Source: Branchiostoma lanceolatum
Lineage: Eukaryota; Chordata; Leptocardii; Amphioxiformes; Branchiostomatidae
NCBI RefSeq assembly: GCF_035083965.1
Contig: NC_089731.1
Coordinates: forward strand, 9,212,501-9,276,500
Direction of reading: 5' to 3'
Length of the DNA stretch: 64,000 nt
The notes below the pieces were generated by a model that had not been told where the DNA came from, ran no database searches, and was given only the letters and a program-made list of their open reading frames with translations. Positions 8,127-64,000 of this stretch are shown here, in pieces; positions within the stretch are counted from its first letter, which is position 1; each line of letters opens with the position of its first letter. Made by a program: the position numbers and the translations under genes.

Positions 8127-11100
8127 ATGCCATCCGGATACGGAATGTGGTTGTGTTTTGCCACCATGTTTCTTCTTACACCGAATAGTTCCTGTACAAG
8201 TACTAGTCCTCCTCCAACCGAACCGTCTTTCCTGACTACTACCGGTACCGATTACTACGACTACTCATATAGTGAGTGGTAAACTGTTGCTTTTCATGCT
8301 GTAGTAGTTGTTGTTGTTTTGTTGTTATGTTCACGGTCGTGTCTTGAAAGTCATTTGCTTTTTAGTCCCTTGTGTTTTCTTCACTCTATGCTTCTCTTCC
8401 GAAAGTAATTTCATCAGGTTGGTAGAAAATAGGATATAGGAGATTTTTTGTACTCAACCAGGTATTGCTCTCACCTGCTGACGTTTCGATGTCTATCAGA
8501 CACCATATTTGGGACAGTGTTCTCACCGCAAAAGCGCCACCTACATCTGCTACTTATAGCGGTGAGAAGCGGTACTCCAATCAGAAGCTCTGAAGAAGGT
8601 GTCTGATAGACATCGAAACGTTAGCAGGTGAGATCAATACCTGGTTGTGTACAAAGAATCTCCTATATCATTTATGTTTCTCTGTTTTATAGACTACTAC
8701 GGATCCGGATATGAGTATCCTGAATATGACGAATGTGACGACTGGCAGGACAAACTACAAGAGCTTCATTATGAACGAGCCGTCAACACGGAATTTACCA
8801 TCATCACGTACGTAGATTAATCAGGCAATCGTGACTAAATGGGAAAATTATTTTCCTTTATTCAACGAATTCCATGTGGCTTGGAAGCCGACGGCCAAGA
8901 TATTTCTATTTCACGTAGCGAGATAAGTGTGATGTTGCATGTAGAAAATATGGTGCCAGATTGTTACAGGAAAATAACAATCTTAAATTTGCTCAACATG
9001 CAAGTGAAAAAGTAAAGTTTGTAGCTATAGTCTTCTGTGTATTCTACGTCTTCTAGTGATGGGTCTTACTTTTCTTTCAATTTTTTGATTTGAATTTGAA
9101 TTATGGGTCTGACTTTTCTACTAGAAAAAACATTAAACTGAACATAAGGGTTCCCACATTTTGAACGATTAGTGGATGAAGACATTTGAAAACAGTTCAT
9201 CCTTTAACTCAAAAGATGTGAACAAAAGAAGGGGATATCTTTTTAAGGTTCTCCAACTCCTAGCATTATATTTTGCACCAACAAATAGAAATCACATTTT
9301 CATATTTCAATGATTTCACCAGTCGTCCCTGAAATGTATCTTTATATTAAAACAAATATAAAATTCCCCACTCTACCCGCCAGGTGTCCTTACCATGACT
9401 GCTGGGAATTCCACACCACCACGTGGTACAAGGAGGGGGTCAGGTTCAAGTGGAAAAACACGGATCTGATCCGGCAGACAGGAGACAAGGGAGAAGTTCT
9501 GGAGTTCTTGAAAGTGTACCGCGATGACGCGGGGAACTACACGTGCGAGATGACCAACGGGACACACACCTTCACCGCTAACATCCAGCTCACCACCAGA
9601 GGTATGTCTGAGTGTGATATTTGTTATCCATCTTCAAAGCTGTTAACTTCTCCAGGCGCTTTCAAGTTCCACCTGATTTCTTATATGTGAAATGATGTGA
9701 AACGATTTGTGGCTTTTAGTGAACTTTTATCGTCGCATCTTAGGCGGTTGCTAATTCCTAATGATATGATAACGTAGTACCGTTGAATTCTGAAATGCAC
9801 CTTGTTCTTTGATGTCATTGGCCACTACTATGATTTATAATGCCTGTAAAAGTCTTACTGATGCTACACAGTTTGCTAACACTTACACTACACAACTAAT
9901 ACACGGACCACGTTTAATTTTGTTGTTGTTGTTGTTGATGTTACTAATCGGGCTGATTTGTTTAATGGACAGACCCTGAGTCCATGACTGCTCCCATCAT
10001 GCAGCCAATCATCCCATCGAAAGCCTACCGACGTCCTGGCGGGAACGCCACCTTCCTCTGCCAGGCGAACTTCGGAGTGGTGGGGCCGGCACACTTCCAG
10101 CAACTTTACTGGACGATGAATGGCACCTTCGTCGACCGGTCGAAGATGACCTTGCATCAAAGGTGATCGAGTAGGCAAAAGTGTTACGGTGATGTCGACC
10201 AAGAGAAAAAGTTACTTAATCATTAGTATGTGCTAAGTTGCCTTATGTAATTTTTCTTTTTTCAAATGGACTTCATATTATGACCTCACTCGGGCCGAGA
10301 AAAAATCGTTTCATCAGATTGGCCAAGTATAACAAAAATCTCACTGAATTCTCCGATTGGCATTTCTAGATCTTTCATCGTGTTTAGATACAGTGAGAAA
10401 TATTCTATTACTTTTTTCTTGCAGGACAGAGAAGGACGGCAGTTTGAGCATGAACAACACCCTCTCGCTCACCGATCTGGAAGAGGGGGATTTCGGCCGG
10501 TACATCTGTACCGCGCACATAACATTCGGATGGGCACAGGAGAACGCAACACTCGTGAACGGAGGTGAGCCTTATAATCATAATAAACAGGTGAAATGTA
10601 CCGTACTCCTGTCTCTCTTTATCCCTACTCTGATGAAATACTAGACGTCTCTCATCCTTGTAACAACACTTTATCTAGTGTTGTTCCATCTTGACAGCGG
10701 TTGCCAAGCAAGGGAAGGAACCAAAATGGAAAGTTGCTTGCTTTATATGCAACAAACGAACAAGGGAAACCAGTTCCCATGAAACAACACTTGCTCGGAC
10801 ACAAATCTATATGTCTTACTTTACATTTGTACTTCGACATTGTTGTCAACATGCAATTAGCCTACGGGCATGAATTTGCAATACACTTATTATTATAACC
10901 AGAAAAATGTTTCTAAGATCATATTTGTTGGCTCTTACCTTTTCCAGACCCACCCGTAGATATAGAAATCCAGGACAGGATATTTCACCACGCCCACCCT
11001 GCAGCCATCACATGCCCACTAGTGTTCCTCCTGATGGTGGCTCTGCTCGGCATGGTTTACAAAACCTGTCAACTGGAGATACAGCTGCTGTGGAAGGACT

Positions 11101-14100
11101 ACTTCGCACAGTTCGAGGATGACGGTGAATACACACTTTATGGCGTTTGTTTGCAGAAACACACACACACACACATACACTCACACATAACACACACTCG
11201 GCTCACATACCGACACACATGCACGCACGCACAAGCACACACACGCGCGCGCGCGCGCGCGCACACACACACGCACACATACACGCACACACACAGGGAG
11301 AGACTGAGAGAGAGACTTGAAGACACACACACACACACAGCCATACCCTCACGATTGCTTCGGGACACCAAACACTAACGGCTTTTTTTATATACATAGA
11401 TGAACACGAAGTGTTAGTTAGTTATGTGTTATGTTATATTTCATTATAGGATAAAGGGAAACATGTCTCCATTGCTCTGTCTCCATTGCTAGCGCTAGGG
11501 ATCAAACTCCCCCTTTTAAATAGAGATCTCAGACGGTCACGATTTGATTTTAAATGTTCGAGACTTAGCTAGTTTTTAGCTATGGCATAGAAAGGTGTCA
11601 ACTCACAGTTGCCGTGTATTGTTTTACAGATTACAAAGAGTGTAACAAGATAAGAGAAGACTACACGTTTGACCTGGACCAGCTCCAGGGGACACACTTC
11701 AGTTTTGAGGTCCGTGCTTCCCGAGACGTCCGCATCGCGCTGTCCAATCAGAAGGCGCCGACTCCCGACATGTTCGAGATTGTGATTGGCGGAGAATGGA
11801 ACGCCAGGTGCGCATTCAATATGTTGTTCTGAAGTGAAAGCAGCGGGTTTTATTGATTGATTAGTTAACAGCCTGACTAAATCGCGCTCCTAGCGGCCCG
11901 ACGGATACCGCCCTCCAGAGGGGGAGACGATCATTGACCTCCGCCGGCGAGAGAAACTTTTATCTTTCTTGAACCTCCCGGCTATTAGTAACAGAATGGG
12001 ATGCATGGGCATGCGGTATGTAACAAACAAGACATTGTCGGAACTACTTTGTATTTATTTTATCTATTCATTTATTTTTTATTTATTGTATCTCTCCAAC
12101 ATCCGTTTACACTTGTTTGTCTTATACCTTTCTGCAGGTCCCTGGTCCGGAAACATGGCTCCCTTCTCATGATGGTGGCCACACAGGACATCCTGTCTCC
12201 TAAGGAGTGGCGCCGATTCTGGGTCACCTTCATCGACGGCACTTTGGAGGTGGGTCGCCAGGGAACGCTGGAGCCTTTCCTACGCTGGCGGGATCCAGAC
12301 CTGTCCAAGGTCAAGTACGTGGGCTACTCCAGCGGGTCGGGCGACAAGGTCAAGCTGAAGTTTGCGGACTTGGGTAAGGGTCAGCGACCTTTGAACAGAA
12401 ATAGTTTCATTTTAAGACAGTTTGGTAAGAACCATTGATATCATACGCAATCAGTGGCGGTCGTTTTTTTATCTGTACGATCTCTGATGACAGAATATAT
12501 TGATTTTCCCAATACAAACGTAGAAAGTCTTATTTTTTGTTCACACATAGCATATGTTAACTTGATTTTAATCAGAGAAATGGTCAAAGCGGGCACAAAG
12601 TAGCATCTTCAGAACACTAGCCTCAAATTAATAAAATAAAACTGCAGAATGCTGCCTCCACTCGAAAAATATTGGGGTTACCTATAAACGTTATCAGGTG
12701 GATACCTATGTTCATTTATCATGATGACGTAGGTACGAAGGATCATGACGTCATCATCCTGTACGACCAGGCCCAGCTGGGGTTTGTGCTGAACACCTTA
12801 CGGATCTTCCTGGAGGACACCTGTAACCTGGTGGTCGCCATGGAGGATCTGGACTTCGAAATTGGAATAGGTAAGATTGATGTTTTCTTTTTAACCTTCT
12901 CCGTGCCAAGGGTGCATATAGTCAGCATATCTACATAAACAAGAGGAGACATTAGCAGTAGGGGTGTATATATTTCTTGAAGGTTTTGGGTAGACCATCT
13001 TGGCACTTACGCTCCAATTTTCCAGAACTGTACAAATATGCGTCAGTTTGATCAGAAGGAAGTATAGCTGCGCGCGAACTATCATATGTCGAACTGGTTA
13101 TGCACAATGGCGTACAATGTAGGGGATTTTGGCAAGTGCTGATTTTGTTTGAAAATTAACGTTTTAAATGCCTATAATGGTTCAGAACCTTATAGAAATC
13201 ATATTGTTTGCATTTGTACCAACAGACATCGCTGAGAACTGGGTGGAGTTTGTTGAGAAGGCGCGCCACTGTCTGATCGTGCTGTCCCAGGACTTCCTGC
13301 GGAACCAGTGGCTGCAGTTCGGCTTCTCCGTGGCGCTGGAGCGCATGCTGACCCGCAACAGCCGCATCACCATCATAGAGTACGAGACCATTCCGCCGGA
13401 GATGGAGGACTTCCGAGAGTGGTGAGCACTGTTCTTTATGAGTAAATACTTTCATCTAGACTTTGGGGGAGCATTGGGAATCAGCTTCGTATGTTTATCT
13501 ATTTATCAAAATTGGCAAATGTTGATTTAAGTACATAGTCATGTTGACATTCAGCACCATGGTTGATTTTAGAAAGCTCGGCACATAGTTCAATCTAGGC
13601 AATTCGGGAATATCAGGAATTTAGTTCTTTGAATACAAGGCTAGGCCTTCATGATTTACCTGTCCAACGTGTCGACAATTTACCTTCCTTAGGCCGTAAT
13701 GAACCCTGCCGCATGGTGGCGTTGCGGCAAGATAGATGAATGTGATCCCAAACGTCTGACGTCTCGAAAGCCTGAAAGTGTTAGGGACGATGAAGAGTCG
13801 ACATACATGCAGATTAACTTACATCATTATACGTGCATTTGATGGAACTGTTTGATCCATGATCTTCAATATTTCTTCATTGTATACGGAAATGTTCAGG
13901 TTCAGTGCACTCCCTTAGTCGCTCCTTTACCGTTATTGAAAGTGGGAAAACGAGTTTGGGAGGGGACGGCCGACTAGGCTGTTTTTCTGGTCTAACACAG
14001 ATTACCCCTAACCTTGCAGGAAATCACTCCGCCACACCATGAACGCTGTGAAGTGCATCAAGTGGTCCGACAAGGACGCGCACAGCCAAGCCAGCCGTTT

Positions 14101-14452
14101 CTGGAAGGAACTCCGCTTCCAGATGCCGAAGAAGCGGGTCCCCAGTACGATCCACCGCCGCCGAACCACCTGCACCACCGACACCAGCTGCAACTCCCAG
14201 AACACGCTCCTGTCGACCCTGTCGACGTCGGGAAGTGTAGTTCCGTACATGCCCGATATCATTCGGATGGAGTCGGAGACCGTCGGTAATGGCGTCGGCG
14301 GTCATCGGGGAAAAATTGACGTAATCCCCGAACAAGACGCTGAGAATAGCGTTGTGACACAGCAATCATATAAATCATTGGTCAGAAGAAATGAGTCAGA
14401 TTTATCCGATAATGTCTTTTTCCCGAATGGATACGATATTACTTACCTGTGA
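8127..14452 (+). CDS. IL-1-receptor-like Ig/TIR receptor with an inserted FA domain
   Basis: Eleven coding exons: 8127-8271, 8693-8807, 9384-9601, 9973-10162, 10425-10564, 10948-11124, 11630-11807, 12138-12373, 12733-12870, 13226-13421 and 14020-14452. They sum to 2166 nt, i.e. 721 residues plus stop, every junction in phase with GT/AG ends. The start was chosen because MPSGYGMWLCFATMFLL reads as a signal peptide. Residues about 87-159 form an Ig domain (WYKEG, DAGNYTC). About 160-269 form a second, with the YWTMNG and GRYICTA signatures of IL-1R Ig3. The transmembrane helix is about 288-307. Residues 329-466 match the farnesoic acid O-methyltransferase (FA) domain (FEVRAS, IALSN, FEIVIGG, FLRWRDPD). 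A TIR domain follows (HDVIILYD; CLIVLSQDF; box 3 FWKELRFQMP, FW at 605-606), then a basic, Ser/Thr-rich tail. By family it should signal at the plasma membrane through TIR-TIR contacts; ligand unknown. IL-1R relatives normally join TM directly to TIR. Confidence 0.9.
8435..8667. mobile_element. MITE in intron 1 of the TIR receptor gene
   Basis: About 70 bp at each end are imperfect inverted repeats: TATAGGAGATT at 8435, and AATCTCCTATA at the other end, with GTTTCGATGTCTATCAGAC inside both arms. There is no coding capacity. It stops about 25 bp before the acceptor of exon 2 at 8693. Confidence 0.85.
11157..11340 (+). repeat. (CA)n / (CG)n microsatellite in intron 6
   Basis: Runs of CA, interrupted by a GCGCGC block near 11247-11262 and a GAGAGA stretch near 11305, fill most of this segment. 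Apparent open frames here (His/Thr or Cys/Val repeats) are translations of the microsatellite. Confidence 0.95.
11630..12373 (+). other. FA-domain exon pair (exons 7 and 8), symmetric phase 1-1
   Basis: Exon 7 (178 nt) and exon 8 (236 nt) together are 414 nt, exactly 138 codons. The introns before exon 7 and after exon 8 both interrupt a codon after base 1. The pair can therefore be inserted or skipped without changing frame. Together they encode the whole FA domain, residues 329-466, with no TIR or membrane sequence. This is the arrangement expected of a shuffled module. Skipping would leave an ordinary Ig-TM-TIR receptor of about 583 residues. Confidence 0.85.
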
Positions 14453-23302: not shown

Positions 23303-25263
23303 TCAATAACTAGAGTGGTTCTCAGTGAGAAGTGGTTCATCCTCTCTGTTGACACTTCCATTGGTCTCGATCTGAAGTACATATTTGGGCCCCAGCAGCT
23401 TCAGCCTCAGGAAAGAGCAGCAGGCAGCCCCCTGGCAGCTGCAACAGGAACTGCAAGATGGCATTCTGGGTAGCAGCTTGTTTCGAATCTTCTCTGTGCA
23501 TAGGCAGAACAGGATACAGTTGGCCCCACCCTGAAAGGTGTTTCCAATGCCCTGCAGTACAATTTAAATACCATAGATTACTAACAAAGTTTTCATGAGG
23601 CATATCATTATCATAAACCATAGTGTTACCTTTGATTGATAATAGAATACTGCAATGTAAGGACATTTTTTTAAAGTTTTAGGTGTATTACTTATTATTG
23701 AATGCTCAGTGTGGAAAAATAGCATGTTTGATACAATGGATTATTAAAAATTTGTCATTTCGTGGCCATGTGTTACTATTTGTTCAAGTTGAACAGGAAC
23801 AGAACAACACATATGAAATAGTAAAAGTCAGAGTAGTATAATGTTTATGAAGGTTAGACATCCAGATAAAAAGTATATAAAGACAATTCAAACTCTACAA
23901 CTGGATAAAATTCAGAGATTTATTATTACATGTATTTATATATTAAATCTTCAATATTAAATTGAATTTTATCCAGTTGTAGAGTTTTTAGTCTTTATAG
24001 TCAGAGTAGTATGTATGGTCAGGCTAACAATGTGCACAGAGATCATCTGTAATAATAAGCATCTCACGTGTAGAACGAGCAGCACGGGGTTGTTGATGGC
24101 GGGAGAGCCACTCAGCGTTAGGATGAACCGTATCGTGCTCCACACCCGTAGCAGCACGAACACCAACGGGATGAATGTCAGCTTACGGTCCACCTTCACC
24201 ATGGCAGCCACGGCGCTGCGCTGAAAACGATAGCAATCCTGCGTGCGACCCTGGGTGGAAAACAGTAGATTACAGAGGGTTTCAAAACATTTTGCTGGAC
24301 TTCAATTTTAATGTCAGAAGGCCCCTATTCCACTGAGTGATTCACCTTGCAATGATGAGTAGTTGTTATTTTACAGATAAACAACATACAAATGTATTTG
24401 AAAAAATGTCTTTCCATGAATTCAAACTGACCTTCATGTTCTACTAGTACTAGTACAGCAACCCAGATATGGCTGAACTTCTAGAGTAAATTTTCTCAGA
24501 CATCTCATCTGTATTTTGGTGTTTCTCACATGATTCTTAGTATACTGTTTCACAACTCAGTACAACACGTATGCAGGCATGTTTCACCTGTCACTCAAGT
24601 GTATGTTATCAATGTATACGCCTGCCTTACCTGTGCATAGATATGTCTCTTCATGGCTATGTACAGTGCGGGGAGGATGAAGTAAGCCAGGATTTCCCAC
24701 AGCTTCCCTGTCAGCAGCATCCACAGCAAGTTGTCGGGTGTGGTCAGCTTCACCCAGCACCAACCCACCGACACCTCCGACCTGTCATATCCTAGCTTCT
24801 GCAGCCCTGCAGCGCACACCACAACCACAAGGGGGACACCCCAACTTACGATATGGAAATATTTTGTCAGGCTTCCTGCAAGCTGAGTGTCCGTCTTCAC
24901 AATGGTTACGTACAAGTAGATCGCGATGGAAACAGTCCAGAAGAAAGAGCTGGTCCCCATGAAGGTGCTGACGATGCTTTGCACAATGCAGTCAACTGTG
25001 CTGTCCATGAAATCGGTGTACACTCCGTAGAAAAGAGCGACAGCCGTCCAGAAGTCCGTGAGTGAGAGAATAACAAGGAGACGGCGGGACGTGGTGCGAA
25101 TGTCCTTCCATGCTAAGAAGGTCACGATGATCAAAGCTGACCCGAGGATGGAGAGGGTACATGAGGTCAAGGTTACGACCTTGATCCAGAAGGGAAGTGG
25201 TGGGATGATTACAGAGGGGGTAACGTGACCATCCCCAGCAGCAGTCTGTAGCTCCAGCTCCAT
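23303..25263 (-). CDS. GPR157: G-protein-coupled receptor 157
   Basis: Three coding exons on the minus strand: 25263-24631, 24250-24068 and 23551-23303. All junctions are in phase 0; total 1065 nt, 354 residues plus stop (human GPR157 is about 335). The start is the ATG at 25263 (MELELQTAAG). Exon 1 encodes TM1-5, with DIRTTSRRLLVILSLTDF, TSSFFWTVSIAIYLY, VSWGVPLVVVV, VGWCWVKL and WMLLTGKLWEILAY. Exon 2 carries TM6 (FIPLVFVLLRVWSTIRFIL) and GSPAINNPVLL. Exon 3 carries GIGNTFQGGANCILF (TM7 region), a Cys cluster (CSSCCSCQGAACC, a likely palmitoylation site) and an acidic tail. The family couples to Gq and has been linked to primary cilia in neural progenitors. The match is clear along the whole length. 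Confidence 0.93.
23878..23997. repeat. Hairpin / tiny MITE in GPR157 intron 2
   Basis: Perfect 25-bp inverted arms (23890-23914 and 23963-23987, AAACTCTACAACTGGATAAA...) with partial extension outward (AAAGAC/GTCTTT) surround an AT-rich loop. No coding content. Confidence 0.8.
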
Positions 25264-27298
25264 TGTTAATTCCCCTATCAAATTTCTATTCTATATGTCA
25301 CAAATCATCCTGAAACATCATCAAAAGAAAATTAGAAAATGTAAATTACACACACATCTCCAATTGTTTTTTTTTTCAATTAATAAGACTTCAAGCCTTC
25401 AACGTTTTAACACTCCAAAAGTTATTATTACAACTCATATTTTATCATAAACTTCCAAACATTCTTTTAAAAGTTCAACAATTTGTGTGGCATTATTCAG
25501 CATTGTTGTGATGCTGGAACAGTAACATACTAGAAGAATATTCACTAAGTAGATGCACTATTAAACTTTATGTCATGATATGATCTACTTTTCTAACTCT
25601 ATTCATAATTTGTATAATTGGAGACTGTTATCACCAGGTGCAAATTAAATACACACTGAACTTCACAGACTGTCACACACACAAATAAATAGCCTCGAAA
25701 ACACAACCTTCTTGAAGAATATAAAAATGTTGCCAATCTCTACGAGACAATCTCGCCTAACTCAGACATTTTCAGATCTTACATAATCATAAAACCGGAA
25801 CAACGATTCAAGCTACAAAATGTATACTGTCTGCAGGGACAAATTTTATCAAGCTTCTCTAGCTGAAACTTAAGTAAAAACAAAAGAACGAAAGGCTTTG
25901 TAAACAGAGGACCTATATCCCAATGTGAAACAGCATAGCTATATTGTTAAACTCTAAAGTACCTGTTATATATTGATGCTGAAAACTTCCGCTTCTGCAA
26001 ACTCAAAAGTTGCTGACCTTTCTAAAATCTCGAACCCAGGACACTCCTGTCTAGTAGAGTGACCTGGGTACGAGTGGGGTTTTAGGTCAAAGGTTGCAAA
26101 AGTTGACTGGTTATTTGCTTATGTCGTAGGTAATATTTTCTTACGAAATAACATAGAATTTTAATAGAAAGGTATGAAAATGAAGGATCTTATTTATATT
26201 TTTTTTATGTTTCGTAAAACTAGTAGGGTGAGGTCACGTGGTTTCTTGTAAACACGCATGCGCTCTCCCTCGCTGACAAGCTGCAAAGGTAAGACGTGTA
26301 ACTCGAGTCTGTCCTGATTTTTGGGTCGCAAAGAAGCAATTGCAAGGTTTTTGTGGCTTGACATCTTCAAAATCTTGACGATAAGTCTTGTCTAGAAGTA
26401 CAGAAGTCATTGTCATAAGCTTAAACGTTATTTGAAGGCTGTAAAAGAGTCGACCCACTACGGGAAGGTCACCCGGCGTCGGCCACTGCCCCTCATTTGC
26501 ATAAATGGCTTCCCTGATCAAGTTTGATATTTATACTTTTTCTCGTGCATCTGTTCATGATTTTTCACCTCGTCAAGCTCATTGTCATCCAAAAAACCCT
26601 TATTGTGTCTGGGGTCTGTCAGATGGGTGTGATTAGTGGTGTGTTCACGTGCCGATGTGCGGGAAAAGCCGGCATGACATTGCTGAAATAGTTCCGTGCA
26701 AGCGTGCACGTACAACATGATCACGTGTGCACAGCGTGAAGTTTATGATCATGATTCTAGTATCAAAAGAGAGACCCCCCACAACATCGAAAAAACGAAC
26801 AATATAACCGTCTCAATGTTAAACAGCATATTATTCTGCATAATTGAAATAAATGATCGCAATGCATTACAGCAATAGTTCAGTCTAGAATTTATTAAAC
26901 AATGGTTTGCAACAAAAGTTGAGCACCATGTCTACTATGTATAATCAGTGATATATTGGAGCGAGGAGATTATATAGACATATAACCTCCTTGATTGGAG
27001 GAAGGGTGTGATAGCACAGACTTGATTTACTACAAATTATAGATAGAAGGTTTTAACACACTGCAAATGCCCTGGGTTTTATATAAAATTAACCATCACC
27101 AAAGAAGACGAAGAAGACAATGTAACTGTAAGGAAGACGTTTATATTTGTTACATGTACTGTAGCCAAATGGCATCATATGACAGAGTGAGACCACAAAA
27201 CAAATGGTGATCAAAAAATATACAAGTGGCAAAGGGGTTTTGGACGCTTTCTGTCAGACATCTGTCATGAGGGATGCAACCTTCCAACATTTATATAT
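25264..27298. other. Upstream of GPR157; no gene seen
   Basis: AT-rich sequence with short frames only. The 5' UTR and promoter of GPR157 should lie in the first few hundred bases, but I see no TATA box or first exon I would defend. A short stretch near 26.2-26.7 kb has CACGTG (26234) and other E-box-like words and could be a regulatory or promoter region. Confidence 0.4.
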
Positions 27299-28404: not shown

Positions 28405-29408
28405 TCACAGGGAGAACAGGCAAGTGCGTTGGAGAATGATGTGCCGCATTGCGGCGGGAACACGCAACTGTTGGTCCACGGAAGGTCTCAGATAGAGGAG
28501 GTCGGCGTCGGACTTCCAGTCACCATGTGCTTTTCTGAGTTCGCGTGGGATGCCGGCCTCAAAGGCCAATGTGTACCCGCCTCTACGCAAGTCGTGTAGG
28601 GTGTGATGTCCCTTGGGTAGTCCGGCCTGCTGAACTAAGCGAGACAGCTCCCTGGAGAGAATCGATGCTGTCATCGGCCGGTATCTGCGGCGTGGGGTCG
28701 TTGGCAGGACGAAGGCCGGTGCATCCTGGGGTGCCGGGCACAGTTGTAGCATGTTAACGAAGGCCGCCACCGGGCAAAGTGGAGAGCCTGGAATAGCCAG
28801 TATTGGTACAATAAGGTCTCGTTCGTTGGCTTGGATAGTCTTGGACCAATTATTACGGATGAGAAGACCCTCCTCCGCGTACAAGATGTCACAGCGCCGC
28901 AGATGCTTGTTCTGCTCGAGACTCTTGGGTGAGGTCAGAACGAGGTTGGACCTTCTCAGGTATGCAAAGAATCCGATCAAAAGGGCAGTCCAGGTGGTGG
29001 CATCTTTAGGAATGGCCAGGTTTAGAAACTGTCGGACTCGAAGGAGAAACTCTGGGGTGATGGGGTGGGCTTCTTTGGGACGGTGACGCAGCAGCTTTTT
29101 CAGCCCCCGCAATGTCTGCTGGAGTTCAAAGTGTTGTAGGCTGAACTCGAAATGTCCGTGAAACTGATGAAGTAGTTTCACCGCCGAGAGGTAGTGTGCG
29201 ATGGTGTCTGGTGACCTGAGGGAACGACTCAAAAACTGGGCGTAACAGGAAAGGAGATGCGCTGTGGCTGGGAAGGGCTCCTTTCCGAAGAACTGGCAGA
29301 AGGCTAAGTACGCTCGGAACTGTGTCTGATGGTTTGCTTGTGTGGAAGCTGCGAAGGCTTGTTGTTGGGAACGCAGGGTGTCCTGTTCTAACACGGCCCA
29401 GGCATCAC
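28405..29408 (-). CDS. Ngaro tyrosine recombinase
   Basis: About 330 residues. An N-terminal SAM-like core-binding region (about 20-100) is followed by a catalytic domain with the arginine in AYLRRSNLVL. The H-x-x-R box is in HTLHDLRRGGYTLAF, and the last box is LRKAHGDWKSDADLLYLRP (His, Trp, catalytic Tyr). The frame is intact. No ATG starts it: the frame begins after a pyrimidine tract and AG (acceptor-like CACCACAG, AG at 29410-29409) as GTGATGCCTGGGCC. It could be reached by splicing or frameshifting from the RT frame 57 nt upstream. In this retrotransposon class the enzyme integrates circular DNA. Confidence 0.85.
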
Positions 29409-29464
29409 CTGTGGTGGGTGGGGGAAGAAAACGTTAGGATGTGATGCCTGCGAGAAGGGATGGT

Positions 29465-30883
29465 CTACCAGGTGTGACTAAAGTTGAACCAGGTGTGTTC
29501 GACAGGTACTTCCGTCCAAGACTCGTTGGCTGTTGTCGTGCGGAACAGACGCTGGTGACTCTTATCCAGATGCCAGCGACTAAGGGCGTCGGCCAGGCTA
29601 TTGGTCTCACCCGGAATGTGGTATGCCGAGAGTCCGAAGTCGTGGCGGGCTTTCAGGTAGAACAATTCCCTGGCGCAGGCCTGCATGTAGGGGTCCGTGG
29701 AACGGCCTGTGAGGATTACTTGCACCGTCGGCGAGTTGTCGCAGGCGATACGTACCATGTGGCCGGACCAAGCCTCGCCCCAAGCTTTGCAAGCCAGGAT
29801 GATGGCTAGCATCTCAAGGCGATGGATGGGGTGTCCCTGCTTGGCGATCGCGGGTGGAAAGGCCGCGTGGAAGAACTGACGGTTGAAGGTACCGCCGCAC
29901 CCTGTGAGGCACGCGTCGGTGGTCGGAGTGTCCGGGAGAGTGTGACGTGCCGAGTCTTTGATCAAAGAGACTCCGTTGAATTCTGGCAGGAACGTACGCC
30001 ACCAGTGAACGTCCTTCTTGAATTCGCTGGGGAGGCGAGTTCGGTGGTGTTGCCGACGAAGTCCCTTCAGTGCTGCTATAATGCGCGAAAGGAAAGTTCT
30101 GCCTGGTTGGACACAAACTGAGATGAAGGACAATTTTCCCAAGAGAGTCTGTATCTCTTGCTTCGTAGCTCTCTTCTTGTTTGTCCAGGTGTCAAGTTCG
30201 CGCAGGGTGTCGGAGAGCCGCTCCTGAGTCACGCTTCTGGACATCTCTGTGGTGTCGTAACCAATTCCCAGGAATGTCATGGGCGTGTCCGGGGGTGTCG
30301 CTTTATCTGCTGACTCTTCTAAGCCAAGATGGCGGAAGGTGCGACCGAGGGCGTCGAAGGCGTGCTGAGCTTTTTCTGGGGTTTCTGCGCCGCCAAAGTC
30401 GTCAATGTAATTGACACAGTCATAACCCTGCGAGGCGTGGATGAAGGTAACTGCGTTGGTAGTCCGTTGGCACGCCATCGCAGCCGAACGTAACCCGAAG
30501 GGAAACACGGTATCAAAGTAATGGCCGCCACGCCAGGTAAAGCCTAACAGGTGGTAATCGTGCGGGTCTACCGGGAGTTGACGATAGGCACGACTCAGGT
30601 CCCTCTTGAAGAGCATGCAACCGGGACCTTTCTTCCTGATCAAGGATTCCAAGGCCTCATGACTCGGAAGGGTGAGATTAAGAGGGTCGCCTAAATATTG
30701 TTTGGGCGCGATACCGTCGTTGACCGCGGACCCTGGGGGAAAACTGAGATCCACCACTACCCGGCGATCGCCTTCGGTGCCTTTCGGGACAGTCTGGAGT
30801 GGGGACGCGATGAAGTCGCTTCCGAACGGCGGTAGCTGGAAGGGGCCCTGCGTGGCTCCATGCCCGATCTCCTTGTCGATGTC
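29465..30883 (-). CDS. Ngaro RT-RNase H (5' incomplete)
   Basis: The frame runs minus from about 30883 to the stop at 29467-29465. It encodes a reverse transcriptase with VVVDLSFPPGSAVNDG, FKRDLSRAYRQLPV, PFGLRSAAMACQ and the catalytic NYIDDFGG. An RNase H follows, with DACLTGCGG, RLEMLAIILACKAW, IACDNSPTVQV and ADALSRW. All key acidic residues are present. The first ATG-like start is unclear: the core begins DIDKEIGHGATQGPF immediately next to repeat A1. The frame stays open another 72 nt into A1 before a TGA at 30956-30958. There is no gag and no proper N terminus, so autonomous activity is doubtful. It converts element RNA to circular DNA in the family model. Confidence 0.85.
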   Translation of the reverse strand, partial: DIDKEIGHGATQGPFQLPPFGSDFIASPLQTVPKGTEGDRRVVVDLSFPPGSAVNDGIAPKQYLGDPLNLTLPSHEALESLIRKKGPGCMLFKRDLSRAYRQLPVDPHDYHLLGFTWRGGHYFDTVFPFGLRSAAMACQRTTNAVTFIHASQGYDCVNYIDDFGGAETPEKAQHAFDALGRTFRHLGLEESADKATPPDTPMTFLGIGYDTTEMSRSVTQERLSDTLRELDTWTNKKRATKQEIQTLLGKLSFISVCVQPGRTFLSRIIAALKGLRRQHHRTRLPSEFKKDVHWWRTFLPEFNGVSLIKDSARHTLPDTPTTDACLTGCGGTFNRQFFHAAFPPAIAKQGHPIHRLEMLAIILACKAWGEAWSGHMVRIACDNSPTVQVILTGRSTDPYMQACARELFYLKARHDFGLSAYHIPGETNSLADALSRWHLDKSHQRLFRTTTANESWTEVPVEHTWFNFSHTW

Positions 30884-31005
30884 TGAAGCCCGGATACAGT
30901 TACTCTCGAAGCTCTCATGTGCTCTCGTGTGATCTCGCGGGATCTCGCCCAGTTCTCATGTGACAATTCCATCATATGCTGCGGCGACCGTCATCATATG
31001 TGCCT
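30882..31005 (-). repeat. Split direct repeat A1 (124 bp)
   Basis: Identical by eye to 28114-28237. It is the 5' boundary of the element on the minus strand and joins directly to the reverse-transcriptase core. Confidence 0.9.
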
Positions 31006-39839: not shown

Positions 39840-42800
39840 TCAAAAGACCACAGGTTGAATCTTCTCTTCCATGTCCTCGTCCTTCCCTGGCAACTCGTAC
39901 ACGACAAACAGCGCGTTCCAGAAACAGCCGACGAACCCGACAGCAGAGCAGAACAACAGGACGGCGTTGACAGTCCCAGTGACGGAGATGAGAGGTCCGA
40001 GGCAGGCCGCGTTCACAATCTGTGCCAGGAATATCTGACAGCTGAGAAGTGAGGTGTCCAGGCCGAACCCACGCTTGCTGCTCCCTGGGCTGTTCTCTAT
40101 AAACTGGAGAGGGTGGAGAAGACAATGCAATAAATACTATTGAACTGAACAAGAGAGAAACAGCCTATAAGGGCACTGATACTGTAACAGGACTGGTGTG
40201 AAGTTTACCAAGTCAACTAGACTTATTTTGAACTGTACATGTTTGGTTACTTTCTGATGAGGTGTGCTCCCTAACCAACAAATAAATGAAAACTTTTTAA
40301 AAATTTTGTGGACTCTCGGGAAGTGAAAATGTCAAAAGACATTCAAGAATGTGAAGACATGAACCAGTTTATCATCCTTCCACAAGTCTCAAGTTCTACC
40401 TTCAGCAATCCCAAGTTGTGTGCATTACTTGAAAAAAAAGTCCCCGAGTTCATGCATTGCTTACCTCTGCATTCTGGTGGAAGTCTGATAGCACGGTGTA
40501 CGGCAGGGTGCAGATGGTTGCAAACATGATACCAAATGCAACACACATGCTCAGAACGACATAGATGTTAGGAAACATCACACACAGTGCTGCAGCAATG
40601 GAGAACATGAGGTATCCGAAGAAGTACGCGGAGTGAACAGAGACTGCATCCAGCAGCGGATCTAGAAGGGCTGTGGGGAAGAAAAGCATACTGTAAATGC
40701 ATTTAAGTTCGCATGGTTCTTATTTCGCCCTAAGGCGAAAATGGAGTGTTCGCGGTGGTTTTAACTTAAGTTTGCGGCAGCGCTATAGTTACATACTGCT
40801 ACAGTAATGGACAAAAATGTTTGCGGTGAAACAGTCGCCGTGAAAACCGCGAACATAAAACCACCGCAAACATTTCTGCATTTACAGTATTGTGGATAAG
40901 AAATAATCTGGCTTAGACATAAGCAATAGTACTTTGTACAATAGTTCAAAATGTAAAATCACATTCAAAAAGGCCATGATTTGGCCTCCAAAATATTTTT
41001 GGTGAAGTTCAATTGCTGTTAAGGCCACACCAGTTTAATCAATTGCTTCTCTGAATCACAGCTCCTATTTTTCCCAAAATGAAAAAAAAAACACCACTCG
41101 GGAAATCTTTGCTCACTACATCAACAGAAGACACTTAATAAATTCAACAAGATGCTTTTGTGCTAGAACAAATGTTAGCAGTCCACTTAGTCCAGTACAA
41201 GTATTCAGTCTTTTGAAAAATATATAAACTGCCAAATGGGAAACTTGCACCAATTGTGAGCCCATGCAGCTCATCAACATCATTATCAGATCTTGTCGCT
41301 CTGGTTCTGGATCCATTGATGGGCTTATTGTAGCCCATTGACAGGTTTTACTGGTCTCCACTCACCTGAGTAAATGGCAGAGGAGAAGGCATAGATACAC
41401 AGTCCCCAACACCCCATCTTTACGCCACTGTCATAGTTCTCGTAAGGGGTCGTCCCGAGCTCTGCGGTGGGGCTGCCATGGAAAACTGTCCGTCCCACAA
41501 AGTCTGTGAAGAACATCAAGATAGCTGCAAGGGGAAAAGACAAAAAAGCACAGGGAGAGTGACAAGGTTGGCTACAAGACATTTATTGTCAATATTTCAG
41601 ATTCAGTGAGCAATCTTACATACAAACCATCTGCATGTGTGGGTAAAATAAACAACGTAATTCATACACAACTGCACCTGACCTGAGAATGTAGCACTCA
41701 GTCTAACCCTTACTACTTCTACTACAGTAACCACCGTACTTGTATGCAATACTTGTATTGCATCACTAACTTGAAACTCCCTAAGCACAGCTTAAGTACA
41801 GTGCAAATCAAGTAAACTAAATTAACTTGGATGTACCTTCCATAGCCACCCATCCTAGGAAGTGACAGAAGCACAGCCTCTTCAACACGTTGGGCATCTT
41901 GATGATGGCCATGTACAGCATTCTCACCGTCAGAACATCATCCTCTTCATCTGAGTCTATACTCTCTCTGCTGTCTGCCTGTGTTGTACCATTAGCCTTG
42001 CCTTGCAATAGGGCAGCGACCTCCTCACTAAAGCTAACACTTCGAGGACGATCATCGTCATCCGTTATATCTAAGTTGCTGGGGCGAGACACACTGTTCG
42101 TCTGCTCTCCCCCCTGGGAGTTTTCACGTATTTCGTCCTCACTTACATACCCGTCCGTAAAATAATTCTCCTCTTCGACGTACTTCGTAATGTTTGCGAT
42201 TTCGTCGCCCGGCATAGATCGAGTTCTTCGCAGTGGCCGGTAAGAGCTCGTCACCATGTGCTTCTGCTCTTTACGTGTTTTTGTCTGAAACTGCTTCAGG
42301 TCGGGCACGGTGTCATCTTCGGAGTTGGCTGAGGCATTTCCGTCATTGCTGGCCTGGTGATTCTGTAAAACGTCGGCTGATTGATTTTGGTTTACCGAAT
42401 GGACTGCACCATAGCTGAATACGGGGGTGGTTAGTGGAGTTGTGGGTGTGAGGGAGCAAATGGACGACACATCACTCATGATCGAGACTGGACGATTGTC
42501 GACAAATCCAGATGAACCGTCCGTTTTGTCCTGTTTTTCCAGAGGGATTTCCTTAATACTGAACAGGGTCAAGGTGGCAGATAATACAAAGGAGACAGCA
42601 GCAAAAGTGAAAACGACACGCTGGCCAGACCCCACCCACGTAGTGAGAATGGTCTGGTCCCAGTCTACCCCACCCACCACATAGCCTACTCCTCCTCCAA
42701 GGCCTAGGATTTTAGAAAGAAAGGCAACAGTTATTTTAGAACAAGAACATTAACAAGAGTCAATTGAAGGAATTTCACACTGTTCACCAATTATCATGTT

Positions 42801-43911
42801 ACTGTTGAAAATAACTACAATCAGTAATTGATTAAACTGTAAAGGCCCAAGAAAGAAGGCAGGGTGTAAATGGACTGAAAAACACAATAAATCTACACTT
42901 CAGCCATGTGATTAGATCTTTCTATTGTAGTATGAATTTGGCACTGTATAATATGATTGAAATATGTATGGACCAGTATCCAGTGGCATACTGATCCTCA
43001 TTTACTGTCCAGTTTTAGATCTTTTGTTACAAACTGCATGTTGGGGGTCTAAGACTTAGTGCATGCATTCAGGAATAACAAATAGTTCATTATCAGATCA
43101 ATAGGTTCTTTTTCATCCCTTTATTATTATATTGCTACAAATATTCTTCCTGACCTCCATATTTATTTGATTATTCACTCCTACCCTACTCACCTCCCAT
43201 AAGGGCATGCAGACTCAAGCCTCGGTCCTGGTCGTCTTGACAACAGGTATCCAGGAGATACGCTCGTGACGGACTGTCGCTGGAGTCTGCGCAGAAGTCC
43301 AGCATGACGTTCCCGAGGATGGTCAGCACGATGGCTCCATACGTGGCAGTCTGACTGTCTCTAAAGGTCGCATTCGCTATGTCTTCTCCGTTCAGCATCA
43401 AGGCCGTGCCCACCAGAATCCCCACCGACAGCGCCAGGATGAACGGTCGGCGGCGCCCCCACCGCGCCGTGCAGCGGTCACTCCAGGAGCCTAGAATGGG
43501 CTGTACAAGGAACCCGAGAACTGGACTGATGAACCAGATGAACGTGTAGTACTCCTCAGGGACACCGAGTTGTAGTAGGATGGGCGTCACCAACGCCATC
43601 TCTAACGCATAGCAGAATTCTACTCCAAACATGATGCCGCCATTGGCCAACAGTTGCCATAGTGACCGTTTGGGGGGTTCCTCCCCTTCCTCTGATGGTA
43701 AGGTAAACGCGACTGGAGTGGGGGGTGGCGGGGGTGGTAGGCGGTACGAGAAAACGTGACGTGGCTTTTTAGTCCTCACGCCAGGTTTGAAGCCAAGGTT
43801 AGTTTTGTGGCCGATAGTTTTTGTGCTGAAGTGTTTCTGTGGCCGGGGCTGCCACCGCGCGACCGGGGCAGGAATAAGAGGAGTGGTTTCGTCCATAGAC
43901 ATCTTCGACAA
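39840..43911 (-). CDS. SLC45-family proton/sugar symporter (SLC45A1/A4-like)
   Basis: Five coding exons on the minus strand: 43911-43194, 42703-41837, 41524-41366, 40670-40465 and 40103-39840. They total 2214 nt, 737 residues and stop, close to SLC45A1/A4 (about 750). A cytosolic Pro-rich N terminus (PPPPPP) precedes TM1 (GIMFGVEFCYALEMALVTPIL). Then come the MFS signature WSDRCTARWGRRRPFILALS, TM4-5 with DFCADSSDSPSRAYLLD, and ALMGGLGGGVGYVVGG across the first splice. A long acidic, Ser-rich loop between TM6 and TM7 (about residues 285-490) is typical of A1/A4 members. The C-terminal half includes LMFFTDFVGRTVFHG, LPYTVLSDFHQN and a final helix. The family moves sugars (glucose, galactose, sucrose-like) with protons. 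Which paralogue it is cannot be settled without a tree. Confidence 0.93.
40689..40889. mobile_element. MITE at the acceptor of SLC45 exon 4
   Basis: TACTGTAAATGCA and TGCATTTACAGTA form the ends; inner parts repeat GTTCGCGG/CCGCGAAC words. On the minus strand the element stops 18 nt before exon 4 (40670), leaving only TGCTTTTCTTCCCCACAG. The branch point must lie within transposon sequence. Confidence 0.85.
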
Positions 43912-44014
43912 GTTCTTTTCACCATCCTATCACGGGTCACGATGTCGCCTTGTTTCTTAGTCCAAGTCGAGAAGAACTTACTCTCTCAGCTCATCTTGGT
44001 GATGGGAAAATGTC
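43912..44014 (-). other. 5' UTR part of the SLC45 start exon
   Basis: On the minus strand TTCATTTGTTTCAG (AG at 44016-44015) is a good acceptor 103 nt before the ATG, so the start exon is probably spliced to an upstream non-coding exon. Confidence 0.5.
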
Positions 44015-49686: not shown

Positions 49687-52600
49687 ATGAGTGTGCACGA
49701 TGTTTACTCTTTATATGAAGGTGTGAATGATTCCAGGTCTGGAACGTCCAAAATGTTGAGGATCTGTGAAAAGCTTCGCGAGCTGGATGCCAAAAGCAAG
49801 AGACTGGGGCTAGTGCGTACGGAGACAGGCTACCTCCGTGCCCTGCTGAACGCCATGGCGAACATGGACAGGTTGTTGGAGGTGGAGGTGCTCAAAAGCC
49901 TGGGCGACGTGAACTTGAAAAGAGGACAACTGAACAGGGACGTGGTGAATTTCGACACAGCCATGATGTTGTACAGGACTGCATTTCTGCGGTGTAAAGA
50001 CGAGGAAGTGAGAGAGAGCCTCTCCAATCGTTTTAGGTATTCGGAAAAACTGCGACTACAGCAGAGCCTGACAACCTCTCTCAATGTGGAACTTGAAAAA
50101 CACTCGCTTAGTAAAGTCATGGAGACGTTCTGGCACCTAGACCGAAGGGCTGCTGTTGATTGCAATAAGGACTCTTTGTTGATTGACTATACAAAATTGG
50201 TTATAGAAGGTATTGTAAACAAGGACAGTATGTTAGAAACGGAAGCAATGAAAGGTCTCGGTGACATGTACCTTAAAAGAGGAACAGAAACCAAAGACTC
50301 GACAAACTTCACCAAGGCCACTGCTCTGTACAACACTGCACTGGCACGGTGTGAGAGGTTCCAGGGCACAGTGGCGCTCATTCACCGCTTATTGTACACA
50401 GCCAAAGCCAGAGAAGCAGCACACCATGCTAGAAATAAGGTACCCCTTTTCTCAGTTTAACTCTTTTTAAGCATGAAGTATACATAACGTACATGTATAT
50501 AGTAACTGGAGAGATATAAAATGCTTTATTAAGGGGCCAGTCTCCGAAAACGTAATAATTACATATGTAGATCCCAATGGGTTATGGGCATTCATTAATG
50601 TATCACATGAAGTAAATAGTCTTATAATGTGATAAAATAGAGAAAAAGTTCCCCCACCCAACTAACTATGGTACCGTAAGTCTCTTGAATAATATTTCCT
50701 TGGTTACTTTAACAATCCACATATGGTAAACCACATGGCTGACATGAAGTTCTGTTTGGTACTATTGAAGGGCCTAAAGTATAGAGGACAGCAACAAGGC
50801 TACGTGTCACAGAACTTCCCAGTGACGTCAGCAAACACTGACGTCATAGGAGATGCAACGTGCCATCAGTACATGTGAGTACAGAAGGCTTTTGCAATAA
50901 TATGTTGGGTTTGACGATAAAAGGTGAGTTTAATTTGGATTGTTGACAAGGAATTACTAAAATTAGATAAACAATTCACTCTGTTATTTTCCTTTCTTCG
51001 TAAATCAGGGTCACCATTACTTTACAAATATGCCAACAGCCTGCTACGGGAATTCAAAAGAACTGGCACACTCATTTTATAGTTAAGTTTAAAGCTTACA
51101 GTTTCCACTGATGATTATACGTCGTTAGCTATTAATTCTTTCTGATTCTCAACTTATATGTTATCAATTTGTTATTGTGTAGCATCGATCGAATAATGGG
51201 CAATATTGAGCACGATACACAAAGTTATGTATTAAAACAGCATGCAGCTCAAATCTTACGTGCCACGGTTTGATGTATTGTGATCACTGATCAGTATTGA
51301 TAAGGGAAGGACAGATTCATATTCATATTCACCATTCAATTGACATGGATCTGAACATCTAAGTATCAACGTTGGTCGGTAGAGGTAGGTCACGTCATGA
51401 AACTGTCGAACTTTTTTAGCTTCTAAAGCTACTTACCTTTTTTCTTCCCAGGTCGCCGAGTGCGTATATCGCTAGTCAGACAACCAAACATGCCGCTCCC
51501 GACTACAGGTTTGTAGGCTAAGTTAAGCTTCAAAATCATTCCATCGACTTTTAGCATCCCCGATATCAATATTTGGGGACCTACGGCATTACCTAAGGTG
51601 TACAAAGCTTAATACAGTCCACCAGCTCAACATCCTAAAGATTAATAAATAGATAAATAAATAAAAGCTCAACATCCTTCCCACGTACAGGTCCTACGAG
51701 AAGTATCTGGCTGCAGGGGACCACGCACTTACAGAAGGGAATCTGAACTTAGCCGAGAAGAAATTTGCATCTGCACTGAAACTGATTCACGGTACGACTT
51801 TTTCTGGTGTTTTAGGTGGTAGTCTAGGTTTGGGCCCCCTAACTGCTAGCTCTGGAACTGCAGCTGCGCTTTTGTCAAAATCTTCCAAGGAGAATAACTG
51901 AACAAAGGAAGGACGATTTCTATGATATTTGATATGCAGATTAGACAAATATGTAGATTAGACAAAGATGTACACAATGAAATGCAAATTATGGAAATTG
52001 TGGCTTAATTTGCATAATTATCGAGGAAAATCTATATTTACAGTGTTTTCATTAGAGGACTCAAGTACTTATAGAAGTGAGTATATGGAAAGACATAGGA
52101 GAGTCAAGTTATTAAGTTAAATGTAGCGATTCCTAGCATAATAACTTTTATCTGCATCTGAACCAATAGCTATTGGAAAAAATATGGACTAGTACTGACA
52201 ACTAATCCTTGAAAGGAAAACGTTTATTTGAATTTTTGAACTGAAAGTTTGAAGGCAGTTTGGAAAACTTATCTACAAATCTACCAGTTTTCCCGACAAC
52301 TGACACGTTCTCAATTTCATGTGCATACAGATCCCAACAAACCCGATCGCTATAAGGAGGCAGAATGTCTGTGTAGACTGGGCGATGTTTACGTCAAGCG
52401 AGGAAAAAGAAGAAAAGAAGGTAAAATCTTCACACAGGCAGCAGCCCTGTACAATGCAGCCATGGCAAGGACAGGTGGTAAAGGTAAACACAAATTGACT
52501 GAAAGCCTGCAGGGGACAGAGACATCGTTTCTTCAGTACGTGGTGAACGCGGAAGGAAAGCAGAGTCATGATAGGGCTCTATATCACAAGGGGCGATTAG

Positions 52601-53016
52601 AGGACATGCGTGCCCGTGCGAAGTCGCAACTAGAAGATATTGATCAGAAACTCAATCCGTACCGATATGACGAGGACGACCCGACGATGATAACAGTCGA
52701 GGTCGAGCGAGCCGAGGCAGTCAAAGCTTTGTTCAAGATCATCTCTACAGATAGGCAAATGTTTATCCAGGGACTTGTTGACGAATGTATTACCACACTT
52801 GGTCCTCCTCCGTGTAAGTACGCGTTCACCGGGTTAGGCTCACAGGCGGCAGAATTGGTCACACCCTACTCTGACCTGGAGTTCGCCATTCTGATTGAGG
52901 ATGGGAAAGACAATGACGACACACGGCGGTACTTCCTCAACCTCACACGGCTTATACGTAGTTTACGGCTCCAACCGTGTGTTTTTCCATGCGATAAAAC
53001 GGCTGTGCGTCGGTAA
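49687..53016 (+). CDS. TPR-repeat protein with a nucleotidyltransferase core (incomplete or broken model)
   Basis: Exon 1 is 49687-50439 (251 codons). Two repeats of LGDxxxKRG...F..A..LY..A..RC (about residues 70-105 and 195-230) are TPR-like. Exons 51452-51508 (..KHAAPDYR), 51691-51791 (SYEKYLAAGDHALTEGN..) and 52331-53016 join in phase. The last holds a third copy (CRLGDVYVKRGKRRKEG) and then GLGSQAAELVTPYSDLEFAIL, the G-S...D-x-E core of a polymerase-beta-like nucleotidyltransferase. Similar TPR/NTase proteins are, from memory, common in lancelets; their function is unknown. Two problems: exon 1 ends in phase 0, but the next exon needs two preceding bases, so an exon is missing or the gene is damaged. 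The frame also stops soon after the NTase core, where homologues would continue; GTAGTT or GTAACG may be donors. Confidence 0.65.
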
Positions 53017-59000: not shown

Positions 59001-59066
59001 CGCCTCCGTGTCTTCGACGAACATTACCCAAGTTCACCTGTTTGTGCAACTATAGGCCATTCTTTG
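56027..59066 (+). repeat. Giant inverted repeat, left arm (at least 3,040 bp)
   Basis: Every base from 56027 to 59066 pairs with 120027 minus its coordinate in the right arm. Several stretches compared directly (near 56124, 56750, 57040, 58006, 58452 and 59040) are the same on the opposite strand, with one substitution found near 58015. There are no net insertions or deletions. The arm holds no recognised gene. The left limit cannot be seen because the right arm reaches the window edge first. Confidence 0.95.
58742..58980 (-). mobile_element. MITE copy in the left arm
   Basis: It begins GGGCCCTGTCACACTTGTGC and ends GTATGACCGGGGC, with the interior GTTAAGTTTGCAGCCGAAGA in reverse orientation, as in 48023-48269. 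Its mirror copy is 61047-61285. Confidence 0.75.
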
Positions 59067-63900: not shown

Positions 63901-64000
63901 CAAGCAGAGGTTTCGGTCTAGTAAGTAACGTTAGGAGTGTCCGGGATTTGTAACGTTTCTCTCCCTTAACGTTAAAAATCCCGGACACTCATAATCTACT
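60961..64000 (-). repeat. Giant inverted repeat, right arm (continues past the window)
   Basis: This is the reverse complement of 56027-59066, inner edge at CAAAGAATGGCC (60961). At 64000 it is still matching, inside a small nested palindrome (mirror of about 56010-56125, with GTGTCCGGGATTT and AAATCCCGGACAC). Confidence 0.95.

Follow-up and report, generated by a model that had tools for sequence, protein, structure and literature searches.

A lancelet receptor of the IL-1R superfamily with a predicted cytoplasmic FA domain between membrane helix and TIR domain

Introduction

Depictions of IL-1R and Toll receptors usually place the TIR domain immediately after the transmembrane (TM) helix, and in IL1RAPL1 and IL1RAPL2 (IL-1R9 and IL-1R10) the helix is likewise joined straight to the TIR domain. 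To our knowledge, neither of these two proteins has an FA (Methyltransf_FA) domain, and we know of none in the inhibitory IL-1R-related proteins SIGIRR and DIGIRR. The TIR domain of SIGIRR carries altered residues.

An oyster FA protein (MFCP) is said to be microbe-binding, going by the title of Li et al. 2021. FA domains have been described in crustacean and insect FAMeT, which in insects couples FA to DUF3421 and for which methyltransferase activity is stated never to have been reliably demonstrated in vitro (PMC10015273), and also in CPAMD8 (PMC9358689, PMC9363628). As CPAMD8 with its FA domain is described for humans (PMC9358689), the assertion of a first-pass annotation of the locus treated here that the domain is limited to invertebrate proteins of mostly unknown function has to be given up. 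Amphioxus TIR proteins are reported to have undergone much domain shuffling, with 20 of 28 TIR combinations specific to amphioxus (Zhang et al. 2008, PMC2575513).

Here, we describe a gene located in a window of 64,000 nucleotides (the whole stretch of DNA that was analyzed) from Branchiostoma lanceolatum (assembly GCF_035083965.1, contig NC_089731.1, positions 9,212,501 to 9,276,500 of the forward strand) and compare its predicted product with these systems.

Results

Gene model

When spliced, the 11 exons listed below yield 2166 nt that begin with the ATG at position 8127 of the window, comprise 721 codons and terminate with a TGA ending at 14452. There is neither a stop nor a break of the frame in this model and all ten introns have GT-AG borders, six of them being in phase 1 and none in phase 0. 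Splicing thus reproduced the exact closure at 721 codons claimed earlier. Judged from its sequence, the locus is best explained as an intact gene of the lancelet that encodes an IL-1R-superfamily receptor of type I.

8127..8271, plus strand, exon 1: start codon (ATG) and, by eye, a putative signal peptide covering roughly residues 1-23; the low-complexity N-terminus begins here
8693..8807, plus strand, exon 2: Tyr-rich linker, beginning of the first Ig domain (splicing, Pfam)
9384..9601, plus strand, exon 3: first Ig domain, best Ig_3 stretch at 86-145, IL1RAPL1 match from residue 100
9973..10162, plus strand, exon 4: first half of the second Ig domain (splicing, structure-database match)
10425..10564, plus strand, exon 5: second half of the second Ig domain (splicing, structure-database match)
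10948..11124, plus strand, exon 6: stalk, TM helix at approximately 288-310, then the juxtamembrane segment; both flanking introns in phase 1
11630..11807, plus strand, exon 7: FA (Methyltransf_FA) domain, part one, preceded by a phase-1 intron (splicing, Pfam)
12138..12373, plus strand, exon 8: FA domain, part two, followed by a phase-1 intron (splicing, Pfam)
12733..12870, plus strand, exon 9: start of the TIR domain including the BB-loop region, Ile510 aligned to the BB-loop Pro
13226..13421, plus strand, exon 10: middle of the TIR domain; three of the four TIR domains used for comparison have Glu where Gly545 stands
14020..14452, plus strand, exon 11: end of the TIR domain, including FW at 605-606, then a tail some 100 residues long and the stop (splicing, Pfam)

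Intron 1 harbors a MITE-like fold-back element at 8433-8669, the 77-nt arms of which are 92% complementary and lie 83 nt apart. An AC-rich microsatellite is present in intron 6 (11159-11295) just upstream of the FA exons and is possibly relevant to splicing or to the history of the insertion. A tandem paralogue was also considered and rejected, as tblastn against the window (E up to 10) retrieved the gene's own exons and matches at E 6.4-7.6 only.

The Pfam scan of the neighborhood comprised ten ORFs chosen from a longer ORF list. Elsewhere in the window, the following features were observed:

24598-25290, minus strand: ORF resembling 7TM receptors, with Pfam matches to the secretin family (7tm_2, E 6.6e-13) and to Dicty_CAR (E 5.1e-11)
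28408-30955, minus strand: retroelement, presumably of the DIRS/Ngaro type, in which a reverse transcriptase ORF matches RVT_1 (E 6.3e-10) and, weakly, RNase H; the next ORF (342 aa) has no Pfam match and is tyrosine-recombinase-like by eye
41820-43926, minus strand: two ORFs, perhaps of one transporter gene; 43189-43926 matches MFS sugar transporters (MFS_2, E 2e-8), and no match was obtained for the second ORF
49687-50457: long ORF near the following one, with a sub-threshold Pfam match only
52240-53013, plus strand: ORF matching DUF294, a putative nucleotidyltransferase (E 1.7e-7)
56027-59066 and 60961-64000: two arms of an inverted repeat, each 3040 nt long and 100% complementary to the other, with 1894 nt in between; one of them extends beyond the end of the window, and the repeat is either a palindrome of recent date or a fold-back in the assembly

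Domain order and topology

In the predicted protein, Pfam detected Ig_3 (PF13927, E 2e-13, two stretches, above the curated cut-off), Methyltransf_FA (PF12248, residues 343-459, E 1.3e-27, 96.6 bits vs. a curated cut-off of 24.2) and TIR (PF01582, residues 483-623, E 2.6e-13, 50.6 bits vs. a cut-off of 21.3), so that the profile search suggested in the first-pass annotation returned all three domains as significant and above the Pfam cut-offs. The lack of a significant FA or TIR hit, one of the two outcomes named there as refuting the model, is thereby excluded. A search of NCBIfam, a library for prokaryotes, gave no match. Hydropathy alone (19-residue Kyte-Doolittle mean, threshold 1.6) points to a single TM segment at about residues 288-310, where windows starting at 284-294 pass and 288-306 is best. 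Seven of the eight N-x-S/T sequons lie N-terminal to this segment, the first of them (residue 20) within the putative signal peptide or next to it, while none falls into FA or TIR and the eighth is located in the tail at residue 702. On the basis of this distribution, the single TM segment and the signal-peptide-like N-terminus (by eye), we assign FA and TIR to the cytoplasm. The order of the Pfam domains and the topology signals agree with the placement of FA between TM and TIR on the cytoplasmic side that had been proposed before.

The protein combines Ig domains (two stretches of the usual three), a single TM segment (hydropathy) and a TIR domain (Pfam) that is predicted to be cytoplasmic from the topology signals, as is characteristic of the IL-1R superfamily. 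TM/juxtamembrane segment and TIR are separated by a 139-residue stretch containing FA and do not adjoin directly; we treat a direct TM-TIR junction as typical of the superfamily and not as defining.

Kinship with the IL-1R superfamily

With the whole protein as a query, the best match among solved structures was the ectodomain of IL1RAPL1 (E 6.3e-10), residues 100-254 being co-linear with D2-D3, and the best TIR match in PDB was that of IL1RAPL2 (E 3.6e-9). The TIR domain also matched IL1RAPL1, IL-1RAcP isoform 4 (IL-1RAcPb) and TLR10 (15 hits in the PDB search), and TIR chains of SIGIRR were found at E 5.5e-6 and weaker. When PDB was queried with the ectodomain only, titin (6.9e-12) came out slightly ahead of IL1RAPL1 (3.3e-11), its score being composed of several stretches that are weak and fall short individually; contactin and FGFR2 also scored. 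For FA, a search of PDB at E up to 10 gave 0 hits, and a profile built from four lancelet FA sequences gave a single weak one, the rRNA/tRNA 2'-O-methyltransferase 4df3 (E 0.024, best stretch 0.073), which we regard as a chance match. The first Ig domain of IL-1R is without a counterpart and a low-complexity, Tyr-rich stretch stands in its place. The earlier description of the Ig domains as IL-1R-type holds with regard to their type, and their number is now specified as two, which match the second and third of IL1RAPL1. Having two Ig domains and not three, the receptor is not filed as IL1RAPL. Since IL-1 gene orthologues are described from vertebrates only, with IL-1R-like genes occurring also outside the vertebrates (PMC9020223), IL-1 itself is unlikely to be the ligand of the lancelet receptor.

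Relatives in Branchiostoma

A database search with residues 300-721 led from 4265 candidates to four proteins, all from Branchiostoma, which are predictions from annotations that are perhaps not mutually independent; the database entries are clusters at 90% identity. P0001 from B. lanceolatum, named CPAMD8, shows 98% identity to the window protein. P0002 and P0004, named IL1RAPL1, stem from hybrid assemblies (B. floridae hybrids) and make up two of the four relatives, and P0003 from B. belcheri is uncharacterized; in the alignment, these three are 82-86% identical to the window protein. Among the Pfam matches listed for P0001 there is no alpha-2-macroglobulin domain. Its CPAMD8 name was most likely transferred via the FA domain only.

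FA, Ig and TIR are present in all five aligned members when the window protein is counted (Pfam), the order Ig-TM-FA-TIR is common to it and all four relatives, and the residues at the borders of exons 6/7, 7/8, 8/9 and 9/10 are ungapped and invariant across the alignment. An artefact of the exon choice made in the first-pass annotation was ruled out, as the junctions are common to the four Branchiostoma database proteins. On the strength of these predicted sequences, the domain order looks real and common to several lancelets. Region searches with FA or TIR returned the same four proteins alone (from 173 and 73 candidates) and no database search retrieved a relative outside Branchiostoma, both at limited sensitivity, so that absence from other organisms is not claimed.

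Conservation of the FA domain

We compared the domains, with borders set by hand, in four of the five aligned sequences; P0003 was dropped as it lacks the N-terminus and the first Ig domain. FA differed at 12/139 positions between the window protein and P0002, at 6/139 between the window protein and P0004 and at 11/139 between P0002 and P0004, the corresponding values for the Ig domains being 42/183, 31/185 and 37/183. Fisher tests on these three of the six pairs, which share sequences and are non-independent (window-P0001, P0001-P0002 and P0001-P0004 were left out), identified FA as less divergent than Ig (p = 0.0008, 0.0004 and 0.002, in the same order) and as indistinguishable from TIR (p = 0.35, 1.0 and 0.82). 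The window protein and P0001 differed at 3/139 positions in FA and at 8/185 in Ig. Identity between species amounted to 91-96% for FA, 74-84% for TM plus juxtamembrane segment and 66-76% for the tail, and the low-complexity Tyr-rich stretch near the N-terminus was variable (54-68% among species). Conserved about as well as TIR and better than Ig, FA therefore appears to be kept like a working intracellular domain.

Altered residues in the TIR domain

The Pro of the BB loop matters for MyD88-type contacts, and a Glu is catalytic in SARM1. Four molecules (TLR10, IL1RAPL2, IL1RAPL1 and IL-1RAcPb) were compared with the lancelet TIR domain, using four of five alignments from the 15 hits and leaving out a second IL1RAPL2 chain. 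Ile510 aligns with the BB-loop Pro in all four, and Gly545 aligns with Glu in three of the four and with Lys, beside an alignment gap, in the remaining one. We take the column of Gly545 to be that of the catalytic Glu of SARM1, a protein outside this four-molecule comparison. Ile510 and Gly545 are invariant across the lancelet set, and FW is found at 605-606 in the window protein. The lancelet TIR domain possesses neither the BB-loop Pro of the MyD88 type nor a Glu at the presumed catalytic position of NADases. With Gly at the latter position it is unlikely to be an NADase, and with Ile in place of the Pro it may bypass the usual MyD88 contact.

Origin of the FA insert

Exons 7 and 8 constitute a unit of 414 nt (138 codons) with phase-1 introns on both sides, situated at the border between juxtamembrane segment and TIR. 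When they are left out, the frame is kept and a product of 583 aa results in which the juxtamembrane segment joins the start of TIR as in canonical IL-1R. However, because six of the ten introns are in phase 1 and none is in phase 0, 21 of the 45 contiguous internal exon skips stay in frame in the 11-exon model, and the frame of the exon 7-8 cassette alone is therefore weak evidence. The phase-1/phase-1 arrangement suggests, without being proof, a cassette derived from exon shuffling. Most likely, FA entered as a two-exon phase-1 cassette into the intron that separates the exon for TM and juxtamembrane segment from the first exon of TIR, and did so before the split of the sampled Branchiostoma species. 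That this was an ancestral intron is something we infer, because intron phases of vertebrate IL-1R genes were not found in the literature as far as covered, among the matches listed. Given the large share of amphioxus-specific TIR combinations reported (PMC2575513), such an event is to be expected in the lancelet lineage.

Discussion

The first-pass annotation regarded the order of domains in this receptor as undescribed, and no description came to light in those parts of the literature that were examined. Searching by title and abstract opening, we found no combination of FA with TIR among the matches listed, and the sole publication matching both terms (PMC10015273) concerns, in the part consulted, juvenile hormone enzymes. 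The main text of PMC2575513 contains no occurrence of methyltransf, IL1R, IL-1R, Ig domain or immunoglobulin; its list of TIR partners is in the supplement and may include FA-TIR.

The reading that we prefer, and to which we give an even chance, is that of a lancelet receptor of the IL-1R superfamily whose TIR domain, itself divergent, is positioned or regulated by a cytoplasmic FA module, function and ancestry of the module being what we infer. The role of an intracellular sensor or scaffold altering TIR spacing or signalling, as suggested for FA in the first-pass annotation, is likewise a hypothesis. According to this proposal, the Ig domains would bind a ligand or a partner outside the cell and bring receptors together, FA, lying between membrane and TIR, would bind either a partner in the cytosol or a second copy of itself, and this binding would set when and how the TIR domains meet. 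Without the BB-loop Pro, the TIR domain would then probably work via non-MyD88 contacts or as a brake, like IL1RAPL or SIGIRR/DIGIRR.

FA could instead serve as a cytosolic binding domain for a glycan, a lipid or a microbe-derived ligand in a two-headed receptor, with Ig outside and FA inside. The oyster FA protein that Li et al. 2021 call microbe-binding in their title, the pairing of FA with DUF3421 described for insect FAMeT (PMC10015273) and a conservation of FA similar to that of TIR are in line with this idea, but conservation in a few close species cannot split sensing from scaffolding, and we consider it unlikely. Its extension to an immune receptor with one ligand for Ig outside and another for FA inside, the TIR domain of which fires or is blocked according to both, appears quite unlikely to us. 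Equally doubtful is a passive spacer, kept as a harmless insertion in a receptor that works as an ordinary IL-1R/IL1RAPL-type protein: the phase 1-1 cassette can be omitted in frame and TIR shuffling in amphioxus is reported as extensive (20 of 28 combinations specific, PMC2575513), yet a passive spacer would not be required to be more conserved than Ig and about as conserved as TIR.

The in-frame omission of exons 7-8 with its 583-aa product also raises the question whether the FA exons are alternatively spliced, such that a canonical TM-TIR isoform exists beside the FA isoform and FA acts as a switch. The usual donor consensus is GTRAGT, and the donor of exon 7 (CAG/GTGCGC) deviates from it; on the other hand, none of the four returned proteins (90% identity clusters) lacks FA even though the length limits admitted 583 aa, and 21 of 45 internal skips are in frame anyway, which makes such a switch very improbable. 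An artefact of the gene model, in which prediction has fused two genes or a pseudo-exon pair, would account for the discordant automatic names (CPAMD8, IL1RAPL1, uncharacterized) and gains from the support for the model being made up of predicted proteins from annotations that are perhaps interdependent. Nevertheless, four separately listed Branchiostoma proteins have the same junctions, FA is constrained and the frame is free of stops and breaks, and we deem this explanation hardly credible.

A conserved domain between TM and TIR in a basal chordate is a natural test of how far TIR signalling depends on distance and geometry relative to the membrane, and in this receptor the FA domain, which is poorly understood, can be studied where its output is measurable. 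Should the cassette reading be true, the gene would also represent an immune-type receptor into which exons were cleanly inserted.

Among described systems, CPAMD8, FAMeT and oyster MFCP resemble the lancelet receptor in their FA domain, but no TIR or Ig receptor architecture is described for them in the sources as far as consulted, and CPAMD8 is of the alpha-2-macroglobulin type. The amphioxus-specific TIR combinations reported in PMC2575513 come from the same lineage and likewise join TIR to unusual partners. SIGIRR and DIGIRR, the latter described as having two Ig domains (PMC7144542), share a reduced number of Ig domains with the lancelet protein, and the TIR domain of SIGIRR matches its TIR, whereas the lancelet sequence scores nearer to IL1RAPL. 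IL1RAPL1 and IL1RAPL2 differ from it in having three Ig domains instead of two and a BB-loop Pro where the lancelet TIR has Ile. They carry a tail after TIR, as the lancelet protein does, and provide the best structural matches from the IL-1R family for both the ectodomain (D2-D3) and the TIR domain.
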